A stretch of DNA of 36,279 nucleotides from Terriglobia bacterium (GTDB lineage: Bacteria; Acidobacteriota; Terriglobia; Bryobacterales; Bryobacteraceae), in contig JAENWC010000003.1 of NCBI GenBank assembly GCA_016650235.1, positions 1 to 36,279 of the forward strand, given 5' to 3'. The notes below the pieces were generated by a model. That model searched no databases. It worked only from the letters and a program-made list of their open reading frames with translations, and was not told the DNA's origin. Positions 14,001 through 21,773 of this stretch are shown here, in pieces. The translations under genes and the position numbers were made by a program. The stretch's first letter is position 1, and every line of letters begins with the position of its first letter.

Positions 14001-14327
14001 TCAATCAGAGCCGGGAATCGTAATTGTGTTGCCCGGCTGGATCGTTTCGAGCGCCGCTAGAATCGCGTCCACCAGTGGCGACAGGTCTTCGATCTGATTG
14101 GTTCGGGAGCGGACCAGGATGACGGAGAGCTACCGGCCGACTGGATGCTGATGAGGCATTCCCTGGTCAACCGTCAACAGAACATTGTAGCCTGCAATCT
14201 CGGCAGCCAGCAGCAGTTCACCGTTCTTTTTGCCCTTGAAGCCTGCCCATTGAACGGTATGGGCCTCGTGGCTGGAGAAACTGTGCCGGAAATCGAGTGG
14301 CAGGCACTCATCCAGCAAAATCCTCAT
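14001..14327 (-). pseudogene. DUF5615 PIN-like toxin-type gene with a premature amber stop
   Basis: From the ATG at 14327 the frame reads MRILLDECLPLDF, then NVLLTVDQGMPHQHPVGR, and hits TAG at 14130-14132. It then continues in the same frame with SVILVRSRTNQIEDLSPLVD and GNTITIPGSD to a TGA at 14001-14003. The full 109-codon frame matches a complete DUF5615 (Mut7-C/PIN-like) protein, so only one codon, probably a former AAG or CAG, is broken. Such proteins usually sit downstream of a DUF433 gene and are proposed toxin-antitoxin partners. The TAG removes about 40 C-terminal residues. The gene may be dead, or the site may be a sequencing error. Confidence 0.8.
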
Positions 14328-14537
14328 GCGATTCTGGCCAGCAATGAGTCCTTCGCTTCCTTCGAGCGCCTGGATCGCCATCTCGCGCGTGACAGTGGGA
14401 AACTGCCGCAGGAACTCACCGAGCGAATACCCACCCTCGAGGTAGTCGATCCGGTTCTTGAACGGAACACGCGTGCCACGAAAACATGGCGTTCCATTCA
14501 TTACATCCGGATCGATCACGATTACTGGATGTTCCAT
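14324..14537 (-). pseudogene. DUF433 antitoxin-type gene with a +1 frameshift, now reading into DUF5615
   Basis: The ATG at 14537 starts EHPVIVIDPDVMNGTPCFRG, then TRVPFKNRIDYLEGGYSLGE, a typical DUF433 protein. After AIQALE the frame as written gives GSEGLIAGQNR and runs straight into the ATG of the DUF5615 gene. Removing one G at about 14359-14360 restores ALEEAKDSLLARIA and a TGA at 14324-14326 that overlaps the DUF5615 ATG as ATGA, the normal arrangement. So a single-base insertion has created an in-frame antitoxin-toxin fusion of about 135 residues that ends at the amber codon at 14130. A functional fusion cannot be excluded, but two lesions in a row suggest decay. Confidence 0.78.
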
Positions 14538-14652
14538 CGTTGGCCATCCAGTTGTACCGCGCTCGCGGTGGAGGCGGCGCGGCAATCACTTCCGCGCGGA
14601 GGGCTTTTCGCGGCCCAGCGGCCCTGAACGATCATAGACCCGGCAGTTCCCG

Positions 14653-15933
14653 TTACTCAAGTATCAACACCGGCACGGTAGCCGTAAACTTGTGCCCGTC
14701 CATCGACTCGATACTCGCCGACAACGTGTACCGGCCCGGCGCGATCGGCTGGTTGGGCACGCTGTAGAGCGGAACCTGCTGCAAGTAGTGCGTCTCGCCT
14801 TGTTGGTAGATCACTTTGGGCTGTTCCGGCGGAAAGGCGCCGCTGGACCGGCGGTAGACCGCCTGTCCATTTTCACGCAACAGTTCCACTTCGAAGATCC
14901 GGCTGTCGGGAAACATGAGCTCAAGCGGCACAGCGCTCGTGTTGCGCAGGGTCAGCCGCGCCCGCAGGCAGGGCTTGAATGTGTTGGGCGGATCGGCGCC
15001 TGGCCCCAGTCCGCACGCCACAAAATAACAGGGAACCGCGCAGTTGGTTACTTTCCCCGGCTGCAGCGTCAATACGTGGGAGTCGGTGGATAGGCTGAAG
15101 GACAATTCCGGCGCGGAGTATACGGTGCGATCGCCAAGTCTTGCATAGACCAATTCGATCCCGTTGAGAAACCCGCCCGAGGAACCGGCCAGCAAGCCTG
15201 TCTGCCGGCTCACAATACCCACGCCGGCTACAATCACGCCCATTGAGATTTCCAACCCGCCACCGGTCCGGAACCTGTTCCCATTGTGGAAGGCGCCTGC
15301 CGGCACGGTTGCCTCAGGTTCAGCGCCGGTGATTTGGAGAATCCCTGACTGGTCCTGCGGAATGCCGGGATCAAGCCATAGCCGCTCGCTCGATGCCGGG
15401 TCCGCGGGACCCTTCACGAATATTTTCCCGGACGCCGCGGTTCGATAAGCCGTGTTCTCCCGCCCGTCGATCGCCAACACATAGTAGACCTTTCCATCCA
15501 CTTCTTGCGATCGAGTCACCGTCCATGTCTGATAGTCCGAAGTGATCTGGCGGCTTGAATATTGATACACCCATTGGTTTCCCACGGCCAAGGGAAGCAT
15601 GCTCCTGGATGAGTCTCCACACGTCACATTGGCTCTTGCTTGGGCCAGCACTTTGCCTGAGGCATCAATAAGGAAAAACAGCATTCCGTCAGTTACCCAA
15701 TCGCCCGTGCTGGCGGCGCCGGTCGGGCTGGTTGCGGAATTCATCGGTGTTCCATCGGAAGCGCCCACGCGAATCAGTGTCGATGCGGCGTCCGGCGCAT
15801 CCCACAGGATTCTGGCCCGCCCCAGCCCCGCTTCGTTGCATTCGACGATCGGATCCGGCGTCACAGCCATGGTGGGAGTTTGCGCGGTGAGGTTTCCCGT
15901 CGCGATCAGGGCGGCCAAGATCCAATTACGCAT
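14653..15933 (-). CDS. Secreted protein with a C-terminal BsuPI-like domain
   Basis: A 426-residue protein with a signal peptide (residues 1-18, MRNWILAALIATGNLTAQ). An N-terminal beta-rich section resembles a small Ig/fibronectin-like domain, and a middle section from about residue 110 (LPLAVGNQWVYQYSS) is of a kind common in secreted proteins of unknown role. The C-terminal 110 residues (RARLTLRNTSAVPLELMF through PGRYTLSASIES) resemble the BsuPI intracellular proteinase inhibitor fold, often found in exported proteins. The start at 15933 shares a base with the dehydrogenase stop (TGATG); a GTG one codon upstream is possible. It is the last gene of the cytochrome/FMN dehydrogenase operon. 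Function unknown; a binding or protective role at the envelope is possible. Confidence 0.8.
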   Translation of the reverse strand: MRNWILAALIATGNLTAQTPTMAVTPDPIVECNEAGLGRARILWDAPDAASTLIRVGASDGTPMNSATSPTGAASTGDWVTDGMLFFLIDASGKVLAQARANVTCGDSSRSMLPLAVGNQWVYQYSSRQITSDYQTWTVTRSQEVDGKVYYVLAIDGRENTAYRTAASGKIFVKGPADPASSERLWLDPGIPQDQSGILQITGAEPEATVPAGAFHNGNRFRTGGGLEISMGVIVAGVGIVSRQTGLLAGSSGGFLNGIELVYARLGDRTVYSAPELSFSLSTDSHVLTLQPGKVTNCAVPCYFVACGLGPGADPPNTFKPCLRARLTLRNTSAVPLELMFPDSRIFEVELLRENGQAVYRRSSGAFPPEQPKVIYQQGETHYLQQVPLYSVPNQPIAPGRYTLSASIESMDGHKFTATVPVLILE

Positions 15934-17117
15934 CACATCATCCGCAACAAGGTGCGATCAATCTGGGCGAGATTGGCTTTGCCGCACAACCCCATCGCTA
16001 ACGCGAGTTCCGTCCGTAGCAACTCGAGCACACGCTTGGCCCCCGCCTCGCCAAAAGCGCCCAATCCCCATAGCGGCGGCCGGCCCACGCATACCGCCGT
16101 CGCGCCCAGCGCCAACGCCTTCAGCACGTCGGTTCCGCGCCGGAATCCGCTATCGATCAGCACCGGCATCTTCCTATTGACCACCGCGACGATCTCCGGC
16201 AGCACCTCTATGGTTGCCGGAGCATACTCGAGATAGCGCGCGCCATGGTTGGAGACGACAATGCCATCGGCCCCGTGCTTCACGGCCAGTTCCGCATCCT
16301 CCGCGGTGAGAATCCCCTTGATCAACACCGGCAGCCCGGCGCGCTTCTTCAAATCATCAAAAAAGCTCCAATCCAACCGGTGCACCAAGGTTGTGCCCAA
16401 CCCGTAGACCGACGGCCTGGAGGGCGGCTCCGATTCATCCCGGCGGCGGCGCGCTTGTGGGGTTGTGCTGGTTCCCGACGGCACCTGCGCCCGAACGCGA
16501 TTGCGCAGCAGCCGCTCCCTGTGCGAGCTATAGCCGGCATCCACGGTCAGAACGATGGTCTTGAATCCCGAATCCTTGGCACGCTGCACTCTTTCCCACG
16601 TACCTTCCAGATCGGGACCCGGGTAAAGCTGGAACCACTTCGGAAAACTTGTGGCGGCTGCCACCTTCTCCAACGGCTGGCTGGAGTTGGTGCTGAGGAT
16701 CTGTATGGTCTCGACAGAGGCGGCCGCTCTCGCCGTGGCGAGTTCACCTTCCGGCGTGGCCAAGCCGTGCCCGGCGGTGGGCGCCACCAGGATAGGACAA
16801 CTCACCTTATCCCCAAACAAAGTGAGTGAGAGGTCCAGGTTACTTGCGTTCACCAGCATCCGGGGGCGGAACATGATCTTGTCGAATGCATCGCGGTTGT
16901 GCCGGAGCGACCACTCGTTATCCACGCCGCCGGCGATAAAATCGTAGTTCTGCCGGGGCAGGCGCATCTTGCAGATCGGTTCAAACTCGAACACGTTCAC
17001 TAGCTCTTCCAGCCCCGGAACCAGATGATCGCTATAGGGCAAATCCCGCTGGCCCCGCAGGAGCGGTGAGCCCGCCAAGAATCCCAAAAATCCCTGTAAC
17101 GCTTCTCTGCGATTCAT
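15933..17117 (-). CDS. FMN-dependent alpha-hydroxy-acid dehydrogenase, apparently Tat-exported
   Basis: A 394-residue enzyme of the lactate/glycolate oxidase-dehydrogenase TIM-barrel family, which oxidises 2-hydroxy acids to 2-oxo acids with FMN. By motif alignment to glycolate oxidase the key residues are Y165 (FQLYPG), D193 (LTVDAG), K267 (VLIKGI), H291 and R294 (SNHGAR), and the phosphate-binding IDSGFRRGTD. The substrate-carboxylate tyrosine (Y24 in spinach glycolate oxidase) appears as F60 in NYDFIAGG. The N-terminus MNRREALQGFLGFLAGS resembles a twin-arginine signal, unusual for this family, which is normally cytoplasmic or membrane-facing. AGGAG precedes the ATG by six bases. The gene lies 17 bases after a pentaheme cytochrome gene, a likely electron acceptor. 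Substrate unknown. Confidence 0.93.
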   Translation of the reverse strand: MNRREALQGFLGFLAGSPLLRGQRDLPYSDHLVPGLEELVNVFEFEPICKMRLPRQNYDFIAGGVDNEWSLRHNRDAFDKIMFRPRMLVNASNLDLSLTLFGDKVSCPILVAPTAGHGLATPEGELATARAAASVETIQILSTNSSQPLEKVAAATSFPKWFQLYPGPDLEGTWERVQRAKDSGFKTIVLTVDAGYSSHRERLLRNRVRAQVPSGTSTTPQARRRRDESEPPSRPSVYGLGTTLVHRLDWSFFDDLKKRAGLPVLIKGILTAEDAELAVKHGADGIVVSNHGARYLEYAPATIEVLPEIVAVVNRKMPVLIDSGFRRGTDVLKALALGATAVCVGRPPLWGLGAFGEAGAKRVLELLRTELALAMGLCGKANLAQIDRTLLRMM

Positions 17118-17134
17118 ATTTTCTCCTCTAAAAG

Positions 17135-17638
17135 CTAGCGCTGGTCATGGCACAACAGGCAATCGTTGGATGCGCCCTTGGTGCGATGGCAGTCCATGCA
17201 GGCCGCCATCGAAATGTCCTTCTCCCGGCGCATAACTTCACGCTCGGCCACCGGGCCATGGCAGGTCCCACAGTTTACACCCTCCACACTCACGTGCTTG
17301 CGGTGATTGAAAGAGACGTAGTTGGGAATGCGGTAGACCGGCGCCCAGCGGGGATTGACGCCCTTCGCGTGCCAGCCGGCAAGTTTCTGTATGTGTGGAC
17401 TATCCTCTTTTACGGCAACGTGGCAGGTCATGCACTTTGCTGTTGCGGGCAGCGTGGCAAAGTCTCCATTGCCGGGAATCGGATGGCACTCCGCGCAGGC
17501 GATCTTCAATTCTCCGGCGTGTTTCAAATGGCTGTACGGCAGCGGCTGCTCCGGGGCGGGGCGCTGATATCTGGGTTCGGGCGCCTGCGCGAGCAGTGCC
17601 GGCCCGACACAGAATAGGATTGCCGCGCCAAGTCGCAT
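17135..17638 (-). CDS. Pentaheme c-type cytochrome (class III/c7-like)
   Basis: A 167-residue periplasmic protein with a signal peptide (residues 1-18) and five CxxCH haem-attachment motifs at C48-H52 (CAECH), C69-H73 (CMTCH), C123-H127 (CGTCH), C147-H151 (CMDCH) and C160-H164 (CLLCH). Extra histidines H37, H40, H90, H112 and H115 could be distal ligands for bis-His haems. The pattern YSHLKHAGELKIACAECH and VSFNHRKHV followed by CGTCH resembles cytochrome c7/c3 proteins that pass electrons in the periplasm. It is the first gene of a three-gene operon with the FMN dehydrogenase. Its start lies only 39 bases from the divergent enolase gene. Confidence 0.92.
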   Translation of the reverse strand: MRLGAAILFCVGPALLAQAPEPRYQRPAPEQPLPYSHLKHAGELKIACAECHPIPGNGDFATLPATAKCMTCHVAVKEDSPHIQKLAGWHAKGVNPRWAPVYRIPNYVSFNHRKHVSVEGVNCGTCHGPVAEREVMRREKDISMAACMDCHRTKGASNDCLLCHDQR

Positions 17639-17677: not shown

Positions 17678-18910
17678 ATGACCCCTATGAACAGGCGACA
17701 GTTTCTCTACACCGCGGCAGGTCCATTTGCCGCGCCATGGCTGGCGCACCTGCACGGCGCCTCGGAAAAAGCCCGCGCGCTCAATCTCAAGATCACTGAT
17801 CTGAAGACGTTTACCGTGAACGTCGGCAGTGTCAATTGGGTTTTTTGCAAGGTCTACACCAACCAGGGACTCACCGGGCTCGGCGAAGGCTCGATCACCA
17901 GCAAGGAAGCCACGCTCGCACAGGCCATCCTGGAGCATCACCGGTACCTTGTGGGCAAGGACCCAACCGATATCGAACTCCACTGGCAGGCCATGTTCCG
18001 TTACCCGCGCTGGCGCGGCGGCCCCATTCTCAATAGCGCCATCTCCGCCGTCGAAATCGCGTTATGGGACATCCTGGGCAAGGCGCTCGGAATGCCCATC
18101 TACAAACTCATGGGCGGCGCGGCACGCCAGCGCATCCGGCTTTACAAGGACGTCGGGTCCACTGTCGACGCCTTCCTCAAGGCGAAACAGGAGGGCTACA
18201 CCGCCGCCAAGTCCGGCTTCATTCGCGTCGACAATGATCTGGTCTTACCCAACTTCGCCGTCCGCGAAGGAGCGCTTCGCCTGGCCGAGGTGCGCAAGGC
18301 GGTCGGCGAAGATTTCGACATTTGCATCGATGCGCATGGCAAACTGACCACGGCCATGGCCATAGACTTCTGCACCCGCATCGAGGAGCTGCGTCCCATG
18401 TTCGTAGAGGAGCCCACGCAATTGGAAGATCTGGGTGAGCTGGAATTGCTCCGCCAGAAAACGAAAGTTCCGCTGGCCACCGGTGAGCGCTCCTTCACTA
18501 AATACGGATTTGCCGACTTCTGCTCACGCCATCTGGTCAATTACGTGCAGCCCGATGTCTGCCACGCCGGCGGCATTCTCGAAATGAAGAAGATCGGGGT
18601 AATTGCCGAAACCTACCGCATCGAGATGGCGCCGCACAATCCGCAAAGCGAGGTCAGCACGCTCGCCTCGCTCCATGTCGACGCCACCACGCCGGCCTGT
18701 ACCATACAGGAGTACAATCCCAACACGCAACCATGGGTGACCGACCTTTTCCAGGGCGGCGCAGTGCGCGTGAATAATGGTTTTGCGGAATTGCCTGACC
18801 GCGCCGGACTCGGTGTGGATCTGGACGAAAAGGTGGCCGCCGCCCATCCCTACAAGCCGGTGACCCGCCCGAAATACGTCTTTTCCGATGGAGGCGTCGC
18901 GGACCATTGA
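17678..18910 (+). CDS. Tat-exported enolase-superfamily dehydratase (galactonate/mannonate dehydratase-like)
   Basis: A 410-residue protein of the mandelate racemase/muconate lactonizing family. A twin-arginine signal (NRRQFLYTAAG) precedes the mature enzyme, implying a periplasmic sugar-acid dehydratase. Metal ligands D218 (CIDAHG), E244 (FVEEP) and E270 (TGER), and catalytic H220 and H320 (APHNPQS), keep exactly the spacing of E. coli galactonate dehydratase (D183, E209, E235, H185, H285). It therefore likely dehydrates a sugar acid to a 2-keto-3-deoxy acid, with Mg2+. ATG 17678 is chosen; ATG 17687 would give a shorter Tat signal and is equally possible. The stop overlaps the next LRR gene by one base (TGATG). 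The 39-bp gap to the divergent cytochrome gene suggests shared regulation. Confidence 0.9.
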   Translation: MTPMNRRQFLYTAAGPFAAPWLAHLHGASEKARALNLKITDLKTFTVNVGSVNWVFCKVYTNQGLTGLGEGSITSKEATLAQAILEHHRYLVGKDPTDIELHWQAMFRYPRWRGGPILNSAISAVEIALWDILGKALGMPIYKLMGGAARQRIRLYKDVGSTVDAFLKAKQEGYTAAKSGFIRVDNDLVLPNFAVREGALRLAEVRKAVGEDFDICIDAHGKLTTAMAIDFCTRIEELRPMFVEEPTQLEDLGELELLRQKTKVPLATGERSFTKYGFADFCSRHLVNYVQPDVCHAGGILEMKKIGVIAETYRIEMAPHNPQSEVSTLASLHVDATTPACTIQEYNPNTQPWVTDLFQGGAVRVNNGFAELPDRAGLGVDLDEKVAAAHPYKPVTRPKYVFSDGGVADH

Positions 18911-20874
18911 TGCGCTACTTCATACTATTCCCGCTTTCTTTCTCCCTGCTCGCACAAGAACCCCAGCGTGACATCGCCGAGTGGATTCTTCGGCAGGGTG
19001 GCGGCGTGATTGTTGCTGGATCCACCATCCAAATCCGCGATCTCGAGCGGCTGCCGTCCGGTGATCTCCGCATTGAGGTGGCGGACTTCACCGGCACCCT
19101 GATCACACCGGATGACCTCAAGCGCATCCGCCATCTCGATTCCATCCGCGAGCTCTTTCTGCCTGCCCCCATGTGGAACGAAGGTGCCGGCAGCAAACGC
19201 GATTCCAACGAAGCATTCGAATACCTGGCCGGTCTCAAGACGCTTGCCAAGCTGCACCTCAGCGTACACTTTCTCACCAACATCAGCGTGCAGGATAAGG
19301 GCATCACGCTTCTCTCTCCCCTTTCCGGGTTGCAGGAACTCCGCATGGCGCAGACGCGCATCAAGGGGAAATCGCTGGCGCCCTTTGTCAACATGCGCGC
19401 CCTCGATCTCAGCTACACTCCCTTCGACGATGAGGGCATGCAGGCGCTGGCCGGGATGAAGCATCTGGAGCGGCTTGTGGTCAAGGATACGCTGGTCACC
19501 GATCGCGGTCTGCTCCACCTGGAACAACTTACCGCTCTCACGCACCTGAATCTCTATGGCTGCCGCATCACCGATGCCGGAATGGCCTCGCTCAAGAATC
19601 TTACTCGTCTGCGCCAGCTCAATCTGCTCGGCTCACAGGTGACCGACGCCGGCCTGGACGCACTCGCGGACATGCGCGACATCGAAGAGTTGAACCTGTA
19701 CCGCAGCCAGATCACCAACGCGGGGCTGGAGAAGCTGCACCGGATGAAGAAACTGGCGGCGCTGGACCTGCGCTATTCTCGTGCTACACGGAGCGGCGTC
19801 GACGCCCTGCGCGCCGCCGTGCCCGGTGTCAAAGTGATGTTTCTCGATGCCGCGCCAGCCCGTGCCACGGCCGCCGCGAAGCTGGAAGGAGACACCGATG
19901 CGGCCATCGCCAAGTGGGCAGCCGCCATTGGCGGCAAGGCGTCGCTGAGCGCCAGTGGCAAGATTGTCGAACTGAACCTTGCCGCCACTGCCGTCACCGA
20001 CTCGCAGTTGAGGCCGGTCGGCGCTCTCTCTTCAATCCGGAAACTGAATCTGTCGGCAACCGAAGTCGGGGATGTGGGACTTCGCGCTCTTGCCACTCTG
20101 ACGGCGCTGGAAGAGCTGAACCTGAGCAACACCACTGTCTCTGACGCGGGGCTCGCGGTGCTAGCGCCGTGCAAACTTTTACGCCATCTGGCGCTCAACA
20201 ACACGGGCATTCGCGGAACCAGCCTCGCCGCTTTTCCCGCTCTCCGGCGGCTTGAACTTTCCGGCTCCCGGCTGGGCGACGCCGGTCTGGAAACGATCGG
20301 ATCGATTCTCACGCTGGAAGATCTCACCATCAGTCACACAGATCTCACCAGCGCCGGTCTGGCGCACCTCAAGACCCTCACCGCCCTGTCCGCGCTCGAT
20401 GCATCGAGCAACGATATCGACGACAGCGGCATGCCGCACCTGGCCGCGTTGCGCAGCCTGAAGGAATTGTCGCTCAACTATGGCCGCTTCAGCGGCAAGG
20501 GGCTCGCGCATCTCAGTGCTCTCACCGCGCTTGAGCATCTCGAACTGGCCCGGACAAAGATCGATGACCAGGGCATCGAATCCCTGGCCCCGCTTGTCAA
20601 CCTTCATTACCTGAATCTGAACTACACCGGCATCACCGACGCCGGCCTTGCCGCGCTTCAGAACCTGCCCGCTTTGACACATCTCCTGCTCGACACCGGC
20701 AAGATCACCGACGACAGCGTGGCCCGTCTGGCTGGCATGAAGACTCTCCGTCACCTCAACCTCTACCACACCCTTGTCGGCGAGCAGGGGCAGAAAACGC
20801 TGCAACAGGCGCTCCCGGAATGCCGCATTATTTGGGATCGCGAATCCGCTCTTCCCACAAGGAGAGGCAGTTGA
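18910..20874 (+). CDS. Exported leucine-rich repeat protein with two LRR modules
   Basis: A 654-residue protein with a signal peptide (residues 1-16, ending LLAQ) and more than twenty repeats of the bacterial pattern L-x-x-L-x-x-L-x-L-x-x-T-x-I-T-D-A-G-L. Two modules are visible. The first runs from the N-terminal cap ([17 protein letters not shown]) to about residue 315. The second opens at about 325-360 with a similar cap ([20 protein letters not shown]), after which repeats resume. No membrane helix or catalytic domain is seen, so a periplasmic or surface binding role is likely; the ligand is unknown. The ATG at 18910 overlaps the dehydratase stop, showing translational coupling to a periplasmic enzyme. 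Confidence 0.9.
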
Positions 20875-20876
20875 AT

Positions 20877-21773
20877 ATGAGAACGGTTTTGTTCCTCTGC
20901 ATATGCACCGCGCTTGCCCAGGGAGCCGGTTTCGACGCTCTCACGGAGAAGAACGCAGCTGGGCAAATTATTGGACTCTCGTTCCGCGGAGCCTTTGTCT
21001 CCGATGCGGACCTGGATGAGGTGGCCGCGATGGGCCAGCTTGAAAAGCTAGACCTGTCCGAAACCCGCATCACCGACCTCGGCCTGCTCCGCCTCAGACC
21101 GCTCCGCAACGTTCGCGAACTGAACCTGTTCTATGCCGAACTCATCACCGACGAGGGCCTCGCCGTTCTAAAGGACTGGCCGCGCATACAGCGCGTCAAT
21201 CTGCGGGGCACCAAGGTCACCGACAACACGCTGGCCCTGCTTGCAGGCAAGGATTCCATCACCGCGCTCGATGTCGGATTCGCGGAGGTGACCGACAGCG
21301 GTTTGCAGTATTTGCCGCGCCTCAAGGGATTGCGCGAGCTCGCCTTCGGAGGCAACAAGATGACCGATGTCGGCCTGCAGGTTCTGCGCTCCCTGCCCGC
21401 GCTCACCCATCTGGACATCGCCGGGAAACAGCGGACCGATTCCGGACTCTGGTTTGTCGCCGTGACCGACTTCTCCCTCGATCCTGTCGCCACTCTGTCC
21501 CACCTGCGCGAGCTCAATCTTTCCGGCACGCAGGTCACCGCTAAAGGGCTGGAAAAGTTGACGCAGCTCACCAAACTCGAAAAGCTGAATTTGTACGCCG
21601 CCAAACGTGTGGGCGATGACGCCGTGCCGCGGCTTGCCGCCATGCCTGCTCTGCGGTGGGTAGACTTGGCCGATACCGCCATCACCGCTCAAGGGTTAAG
21701 CAGCCTCCGATCTTCCAAACCAAATCTCACCGCTCTCGGCAAACCAGCCGAGCCTCAGCCTCCTTCCAAATGA
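20877..21773 (+). CDS. Second exported leucine-rich repeat protein
   Basis: A 298-residue LRR protein with a signal peptide (residues 1-16, [16 protein letters not shown]) and about nine to ten repeats such as [19 protein letters not shown] and [19 protein letters not shown]. It is a shorter relative of the preceding LRR protein. AAGGAG lies 12 bases before the ATG, inside the end of the upstream gene; the ATG is only two bases past that gene's stop. Its own TGA overlaps the next gene by ATGA. One repeat ([20 protein letters not shown]) is irregular and longer. The role is probably protein or ligand binding in the envelope; no specific function can be assigned. Confidence 0.88.

Follow-up and report, generated by a model that had tools for sequence, protein, structure and literature searches.

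A 36,279-nt stretch of DNA from a Terriglobia bacterium of the family Bryobacteraceae (contig JAENWC010000003.1; hereafter the window) encodes a pentahaem cytochrome c and, directly downstream, a flavin mononucleotide (FMN) dehydrogenase. The pair is read here, with a probability of about two in three, as a periplasmic respiratory entry point in which an FMN dehydrogenase exported by the twin-arginine translocation (Tat) system would reduce a dedicated haem wire of the ActA type, feeding the cytochrome c/alternative complex III (ACIII)–oxidase chain. Under this reading the dehydrogenase would fold with its flavin in the cytoplasm, leave in folded form through Tat and oxidize a small substrate in the periplasm, most likely a 2-hydroxy acid or close analogue. 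The enzyme would then hand its electrons to a soluble pentahaem cytochrome of its own, co-expressed with it and putatively derived from ActA; this wire would in turn pass them to the pool of periplasmic cytochrome c and to the ACIII/haem-copper oxidase chain. We infer all four elements of this scheme, namely export, electron transfer, substrate class and downstream acceptor. The pair would be just one such module among several working side by side in these bacteria, where ActA-type cytochromes act for a range of periplasmic dehydrogenases.

Conservation of the cytochrome–dehydrogenase pair

The orthologue set comprised 22 FMN dehydrogenases at least 60 % identical, that of the window included, from 257 Bryobacterales genomes. 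In 17 of the 22 a same-strand pentahaem gene immediately preceded the FMN gene, at a distance of about 1–25 bp. The earlier note on this DNA had staked its reading on a conserved neighbourhood with the cytochrome, and this was found. The pentahaem gene was likewise upstream of the FMN gene at two loci from another family of Bryobacterales (L102 and L105). More broadly, genes with at least three haems lay within 150 bp and on the same strand for 16 of 74 related FMN genes, compared with 2 of the 282 remaining genes of the stretches concerned (Fisher p = 3e-10, which overstates independence because the loci are related). The recurrence of this gene order and the enrichment of multihaem genes near FMN genes together place the adjacency beyond chance, and chance adjacency was rejected.

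In two further genomes (G054 and G049) the closest relatives of the L102 FMN gene and of the L102 cytochrome were both present and not adjacent, which is co-occurrence without linkage. No close orthologue of the FMN dehydrogenase (E 1e-100) was found in 148 other sampled Acidobacteriota genomes, so the close unit appears to be confined to the Bryobacterales. The conserved unit is one of two genes, the cytochrome and the FMN dehydrogenase, and not of three as first proposed.

Relationship of the cytochrome to ActA

Sequence comparison relates the cytochrome, which stands alone, to ActA, the five-haem subunit of ACIII. Its sequence relatives in the PDB were ACIII subunits (8k9e, 4e-29; 6f0k, 2e-24; 6btm, 4e-24). 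All five CxxCH motifs were invariant in 82 aligned relatives, including nine ActB-linked ActA sequences, as were H37, H40, H112, H115 and M144. The five haems of ActA, four with bis-His and one with His/Met ligation, form a wire of ~45 Å, with reported haem potentials of −45 to +230 mV (PMC5928083). The window cytochrome has the same complement of five CxxCH, four distal His and one distal Met as ActA (PMC5928083), so that its predicted ligand set, four bis-His haems and one His/Met haem, equals that of ActA; the invariance of M144 suggests it as the distal ligand of the His/Met haem. Given the ActA potentials, transfer from a reduced flavin would be downhill.

The window cytochrome differs from ActA in falling into a separate clade and in having no adjacent ActB or membrane subunits. 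Its neighbours are FMN_dh and BsuPI genes rather than ActB or NrfD, and the true ACIII genes of the genome are on other contigs; membership of a local ACIII was rejected. Whereas ActA is anchored by a transmembrane helix, the window cytochrome is probably soluble, with a cleaved leader. Both ACIII and COX1 genes are present in the window's genome, and one COX1 lies just downstream of the ACIII operon. AlphaFold2 prediction of the cytochrome with eight orthologues gave a mean pLDDT of 48 and a pTM of 0.28, and this model was not used.

Predicted export of the FMN dehydrogenase

A twin-arginine (RR) leader was present in all 22 FMN orthologues, typically of the form RRxAxRxLAxFxAASPLARAQ, and R3 and R4 were invariant in the homologue alignment. 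The earlier note had also staked its reading on a Tat signal in homologues, and the conserved RR leader bore this out. In the acidobacterial clade about 35–40 residues precede the mature FMN domain. The case for Tat was built on RR conservation compared with outside control sequences: 72 of 85 acidobacterial FMN homologues had an RR with a hydrophobic stretch after it, compared with 1 of 37 proteobacterial, actinobacterial and other relatives. An NCBIfam profile search of the FMN homologues, which is insensitive to this leader, gave nothing informative as a Tat test. TatC is encoded in the window's genome. As FMN is ordinarily incorporated in the cytoplasm, Tat is the route by which export would be expected. 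Export of the dehydrogenase by Tat is thus well supported by conservation, as a prediction from sequence.

Family, active site and probable substrate class of the FMN dehydrogenase

The dehydrogenase matched Pfam FMN_dh (PF01070) with a score of 395 bits against a gathering cut-off of 24.9, and its closest solved relatives by sequence were lactate oxidase and glycolate oxidase. Five of the seven canonical active-site residues were kept: glycolate oxidase D157, K230, H254, R257 and Y129 correspond to D193, K267, H291, R294 and Y165 in the window. The remaining two were changed, Y24 to Phe60 and W108 to Asn144. It is therefore very probably an FMN oxidoreductase with the hydride-transfer core of the family. 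The W108 position also differs in the LldD and lactate oxidase sequences compared, so that the residue changes weaken, and do not exclude, activity on hydroxy acids. The top-scoring NCBIfam models were those of LldD and L-lactate oxidase, neither of which reached its equivalog cut-off (204 against 550 and 246 against 645, respectively). No fused cytochrome b5-type domain (PF00173) was matched by Pfam in the dehydrogenase; the haems are on a separate gene.

The substrate is most likely a 2-hydroxy acid or close analogue, and no single substrate can be named, because Y24 is replaced by Phe and W108 by Asn. The hydroxy-acid assignment made previously is favoured by the five kept residues, opposed by the two changed ones, and graded here as uncertain.

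ActA-type cytochromes beside other dehydrogenase classes

Sequences of the ActA type were found in 60 of 61 related genomes, at up to nine copies each, and 83 distinct copies were classed by their same-strand neighbours, with representatives of the partner classes checked with Pfam. With two copies (L105 and L219) counted in two classes, the partners were ActB in 9 cases, FMN_dh in 11, GMC dehydrogenases in 13, pyrroloquinoline quinone (PQQ) dehydrogenases in 18, GSDH-type sugar dehydrogenases in 3, a molybdopterin enzyme in 1 and a thiamine-diphosphate enzyme in 4, leaving 26 other or unclear. The ActB-linked copies belong to ACIII or ACIII-like complexes and formed one clade on the cytochrome tree (99/97). 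The FMN-linked cytochromes formed one clade of nine (99/93) plus L102; the cytochrome of L105 is of the PQQ type and lies between a PQQ and an FMN gene. Partner class clustered strongly on the tree, with 20 changes against 50.8 for shuffled labels, a difference to which relatedness contributes. The earlier note had missed both the kinship with ActA and the pairing with other dehydrogenase classes.

Tentatively, and at somewhat below even odds, the ActA-type pentahaems of Bryobacterales and nearby Acidobacteriota may be general adaptors. They would have been separated from ACIII and re-used as dedicated acceptors for at least four unrelated classes of periplasmic dehydrogenase (FMN, GMC with gluconate-dehydrogenase subunit 3, PQQ and GSDH), each of which would dock a haem wire that passes electrons directly to the ACIII–oxidase supercomplex or another common hub.

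Individual loci illustrate the range of partners. A PQQ dehydrogenase gene was followed directly by an ActA-type pentahaem gene at four loci (L195:3117-5503, L210, L214 and L197). GMC, gluconate 2-dehydrogenase subunit 3 and ActA-type pentahaem genes formed a single run at four others (L208:5036-7744, L205, L209 and L213), and the subunit 3 gene usually precedes the GMC gene in the listed loci. This run varies on gluconate-dehydrogenase-like systems, from which it departs in its cytochrome. At L227, L229, L231 and L239 the pentahaem gene adjoins that of a thiamine-diphosphate enzyme, possibly a candidate new class of electron donor. In one genus of a sister family (L166–L178 and L211), the pentahaem gene lies beside DXP-reductoisomerase-like and site-2-protease-like genes, with no dehydrogenase gene in reach.

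Other FMN dehydrogenase subclades and their cytochromes

The acidobacterial FMN_dh proteins with an RR leader fell into subclades with an ActA-type cytochrome upstream (that of the window), a six-haem cytochrome downstream, a four-haem cytochrome downstream, or none linked. The six-haem cytochrome was downstream in 12 of 13 members, in one of which (L046) only three haems were readable in frame, and the four-haem cytochrome in 9 of 16, in some of them beyond one intervening gene. The window's genome itself has five full-length FMN_dh genes, one linked to the pentahaem, one to a six-haem and one to a four-haem cytochrome, and two without. Apart from electron transfer, little would account for the linkage of a single enzyme family with three cytochrome families that are unrelated to each other.

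Further features were seen at these loci. At six loci of the six-haem subclade (L141:253-2048, L133, L119, L047, L051 and L123) the downstream cytochrome gene overlaps the FMN gene, and L047, L051, L121, L123 and L133 have at least one gene of the ATP-synthase-like (atpI or atpB) and DHDPS-like kinds nearby. The cytochrome of the four-haem subclade carries an extra N-terminal domain (L114, L109, L111, L112, L124, L125 and L150), and a recurring gene of ~254 aa adjoins the FMN gene in L112, L114, L124, L125 and L150, as well as in L131.

Contrary evidence and alternative explanations

Several observations weigh against the pair as a respiratory entry point. Five of the 22 FMN orthologues had no linked pentahaem gene. 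One of these (G263) has a 60 %-identical pentahaem elsewhere in its genome; the other four, all of one genus, have as their best pentahaem one linked to a GMC dehydrogenase gene, so in this unlinked subclade the partner has been lost or is shared. The Pfam TAT_signal profile, which is short and insensitive, matched only 1 of 71 FMN homologues. The changes of Y24 and W108 make activity on ordinary 2-hydroxy acids less certain. Finally, Ala115 occupies the position of glycolate oxidase A79, as in the lactate oxidase compared, and the paralogues in the same genome have Gly. Ala at this position, which bears on reactivity with O2, is found in oxidases too, so that a reaction with O2 could take place.

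The exported FMN_dh clade may act on something other than a hydroxy acid, in the manner of MftD, a superfamily member with a peptide as its substrate. The Y24F and W108N changes point in this direction, as does the Thr or Ser that takes the place of Y129 in almost every member of the six-haem and four-haem subclades, and in an experimental survey of the family most inactive proteins missed at least one of the seven residues (PMC8491902). The catalytic His, Arg, Lys and Asp are nevertheless kept, Tyr at position 24 is retained in about half of the close orthologues, and the top scores, albeit short of the cut-offs, go to the lactate oxidase and LldD models. A different substrate class is considered unlikely, if the most serious of the competing explanations.

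The dehydrogenase could also be a periplasmic 2-hydroxy-acid oxidase that uses O2 and makes H2O2, with the cytochrome serving another enzyme or quenching peroxide and the linkage reflecting co-regulation only. Lactate and glycolate oxidases being the closest solved relatives, and the alanine at the A79 position, would fit such an enzyme. In the cytochrome, however, all haem ligands appear to be filled, which leaves no open site for peroxide chemistry. The pairing of FMN_dh subclades with three unrelated multihaem families favours electron transfer over co-regulation, and ActA relatives adjoin other dehydrogenase classes too. These points make an H2O2-forming oxidase improbable.

A third explanation retains electron transfer and differs in its destination: the cytochrome would use an NrfD-type membrane complex to reduce the quinone pool, like QrcA in sulfate reducers, and would not deliver to cytochrome c. 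QrcA (NF041781), of the menaquinone reductase complex, is a homologous multihaem cytochrome and was the best NCBIfam match of the window cytochrome (1.7e-20), and two NrfD loci are present in the genome. The score of 73.4 bits was far below the cut-off of 180, however, and QrcA has six haems and the partners QrcBCD, compared with five haems here, so assignment as QrcA itself was rejected. Both NrfD loci have their own ActA and ActB genes, and none of the orthologues examined has a membrane gene next to the pair. Delivery to quinone is thus judged a little more improbable still than the oxidase.

The weakest explanation is the three-gene system of the earlier note, in which the BsuPI protein is a functional third subunit: its gene overlaps that of the dehydrogenase by 4 bp and its product has a secretion signal, but it adjoins none of the 21 other FMN orthologues and its homologues in related genomes sit elsewhere, away from the FMN gene, which makes a third subunit very improbable and led to its rejection as a conserved one.

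Organization of the locus and neighbouring genes

The three packed genes described in the earlier note were borne out in their open reading frames, strand, spacing and domains (Table 1). They are transcribed in the order pentahaem cytochrome, FMN dehydrogenase, BsuPI gene. The cytochrome and FMN genes are separated by 17 bp, with a strong ribosome-binding site (AGAGGAG) ahead of the FMN start codon. This spacing and the downstream overlap fit a single transcript for all three genes. As a BsuPI gene downstream of the FMN gene was seen only in the window, the three-gene unit is not conserved; the BsuPI gene, probably co-transcribed given its overlap, is a local addition. Of the module as originally conceived, the leader on the dehydrogenase and the cytochrome neighbourhood stood, and the place of the BsuPI gene in the unit did not.

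Table 1. Coordinates of the cytochrome–FMN dehydrogenase locus in the window
Feature	Position	Strand	Description
Pentahaem cytochrome c gene	17135-17638	-	167 aa; five CxxCH (C48, C69, C123, C147, C160); Sec-like signal peptide
FMN dehydrogenase gene	15933-17117	-	394 aa; N-terminus MNRREALQGFLGFLAGSPLLRGQ; Pfam FMN_dh (PF01070) 3.7e-118
Tat-like signal of FMN dehydrogenase	17049-17117	-	Residues 1-23, MNRREALQGFLGFLAGSPLLRGQ; RR leader
BsuPI-domain protein gene	14653-15936	-	427 aa; predicted secreted; Pfam BsuPI 5.2e-07, score above family cut-off

The divergent neighbour (17678-18910, plus strand) encodes an enolase-superfamily dehydratase resembling galactonate dehydratase, with a score just below the NCBIfam cut-off. 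It has its own RR leader (MNRRQFLYTAAG), unusual for dehydratases of this superfamily, and its gene is absent next to the closest FMN orthologue (L092). Beyond it are two adjacent genes for predicted secreted leucine-rich-repeat proteins (18907-20874 and 20820-21773, plus strand). On the other side, an open reading frame at 14133-14585 (minus strand) has a Pfam match to a DUF433 antitoxin-like domain and reads in frame into an early-ending second part, which we take to be the start of a PIN-like/DUF5615-type toxin; it looks like a decayed toxin–antitoxin pair.

Relationship to known systems and implications

A flavin dehydrogenase with its own cytochrome is already known from flavocytochrome b2 and from gluconate and fructose dehydrogenases (PMC6472588). 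Flavocytochrome b2, the L-lactate:cytochrome c oxidoreductase of the yeast intermembrane space, passes electrons from an FMN_dh domain to haem and then to cytochrome c (PMC6472588). It resembles the window pair in placing an FMN_dh catalytic domain in an oxidizing compartment with haem and cytochrome c as successive acceptors. Its haem, however, is in a fused b5-type domain, whereas the window pair is bacterial, has an RR leader and includes a separate c-type cytochrome with five haems and a different fold. By this analogy, the best reading is that the pair would work like flavocytochrome b2 with the haem part replaced.

Gluconate 2-dehydrogenase and fructose dehydrogenase likewise combine a periplasmic flavoprotein with a dedicated c-type cytochrome subunit, although both proteins are from other families; in the case of gluconate 2-dehydrogenase the acidobacterial GMC and subunit 3 genes also carry an ActA-type pentahaem. 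LldD and (S)-mandelate dehydrogenase have the FMN_dh family and its catalytic residues in common with the window enzyme, but face the cytoplasm, reduce quinone and are without an RR leader. Proteobacterial LldD sequences branched outside the acidobacterial FMN_dh clade on the family tree. No description of a free-standing ActA-type pentahaem as the partner of a flavin dehydrogenase, or as used across dehydrogenase classes, was found in the open-access literature searched. Most such genes are presumably annotated only as 'alpha-hydroxy-acid oxidising protein' or 'cytochrome c3 family protein', which would hide the pairing.

Acidobacteriota are abundant in soils, and the entry of electrons from outside substrates into their respiration is poorly known. 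Some soil and freshwater Acidobacteria appear to oxidize a small molecule outside the inner membrane in the way proposed here. If this is correct, flavocytochrome b2 would have a counterpart in bacteria, and the pair, as a natural couple of flavin and multihaem, might serve in bioelectrodes. Haem wires of one family, descended from a respiratory complex, would connect the periplasmic dehydrogenases of Acidobacteriota; this one cytochrome family would then predict which genes encode periplasmic dehydrogenases, and the hub that they share would be directly testable.

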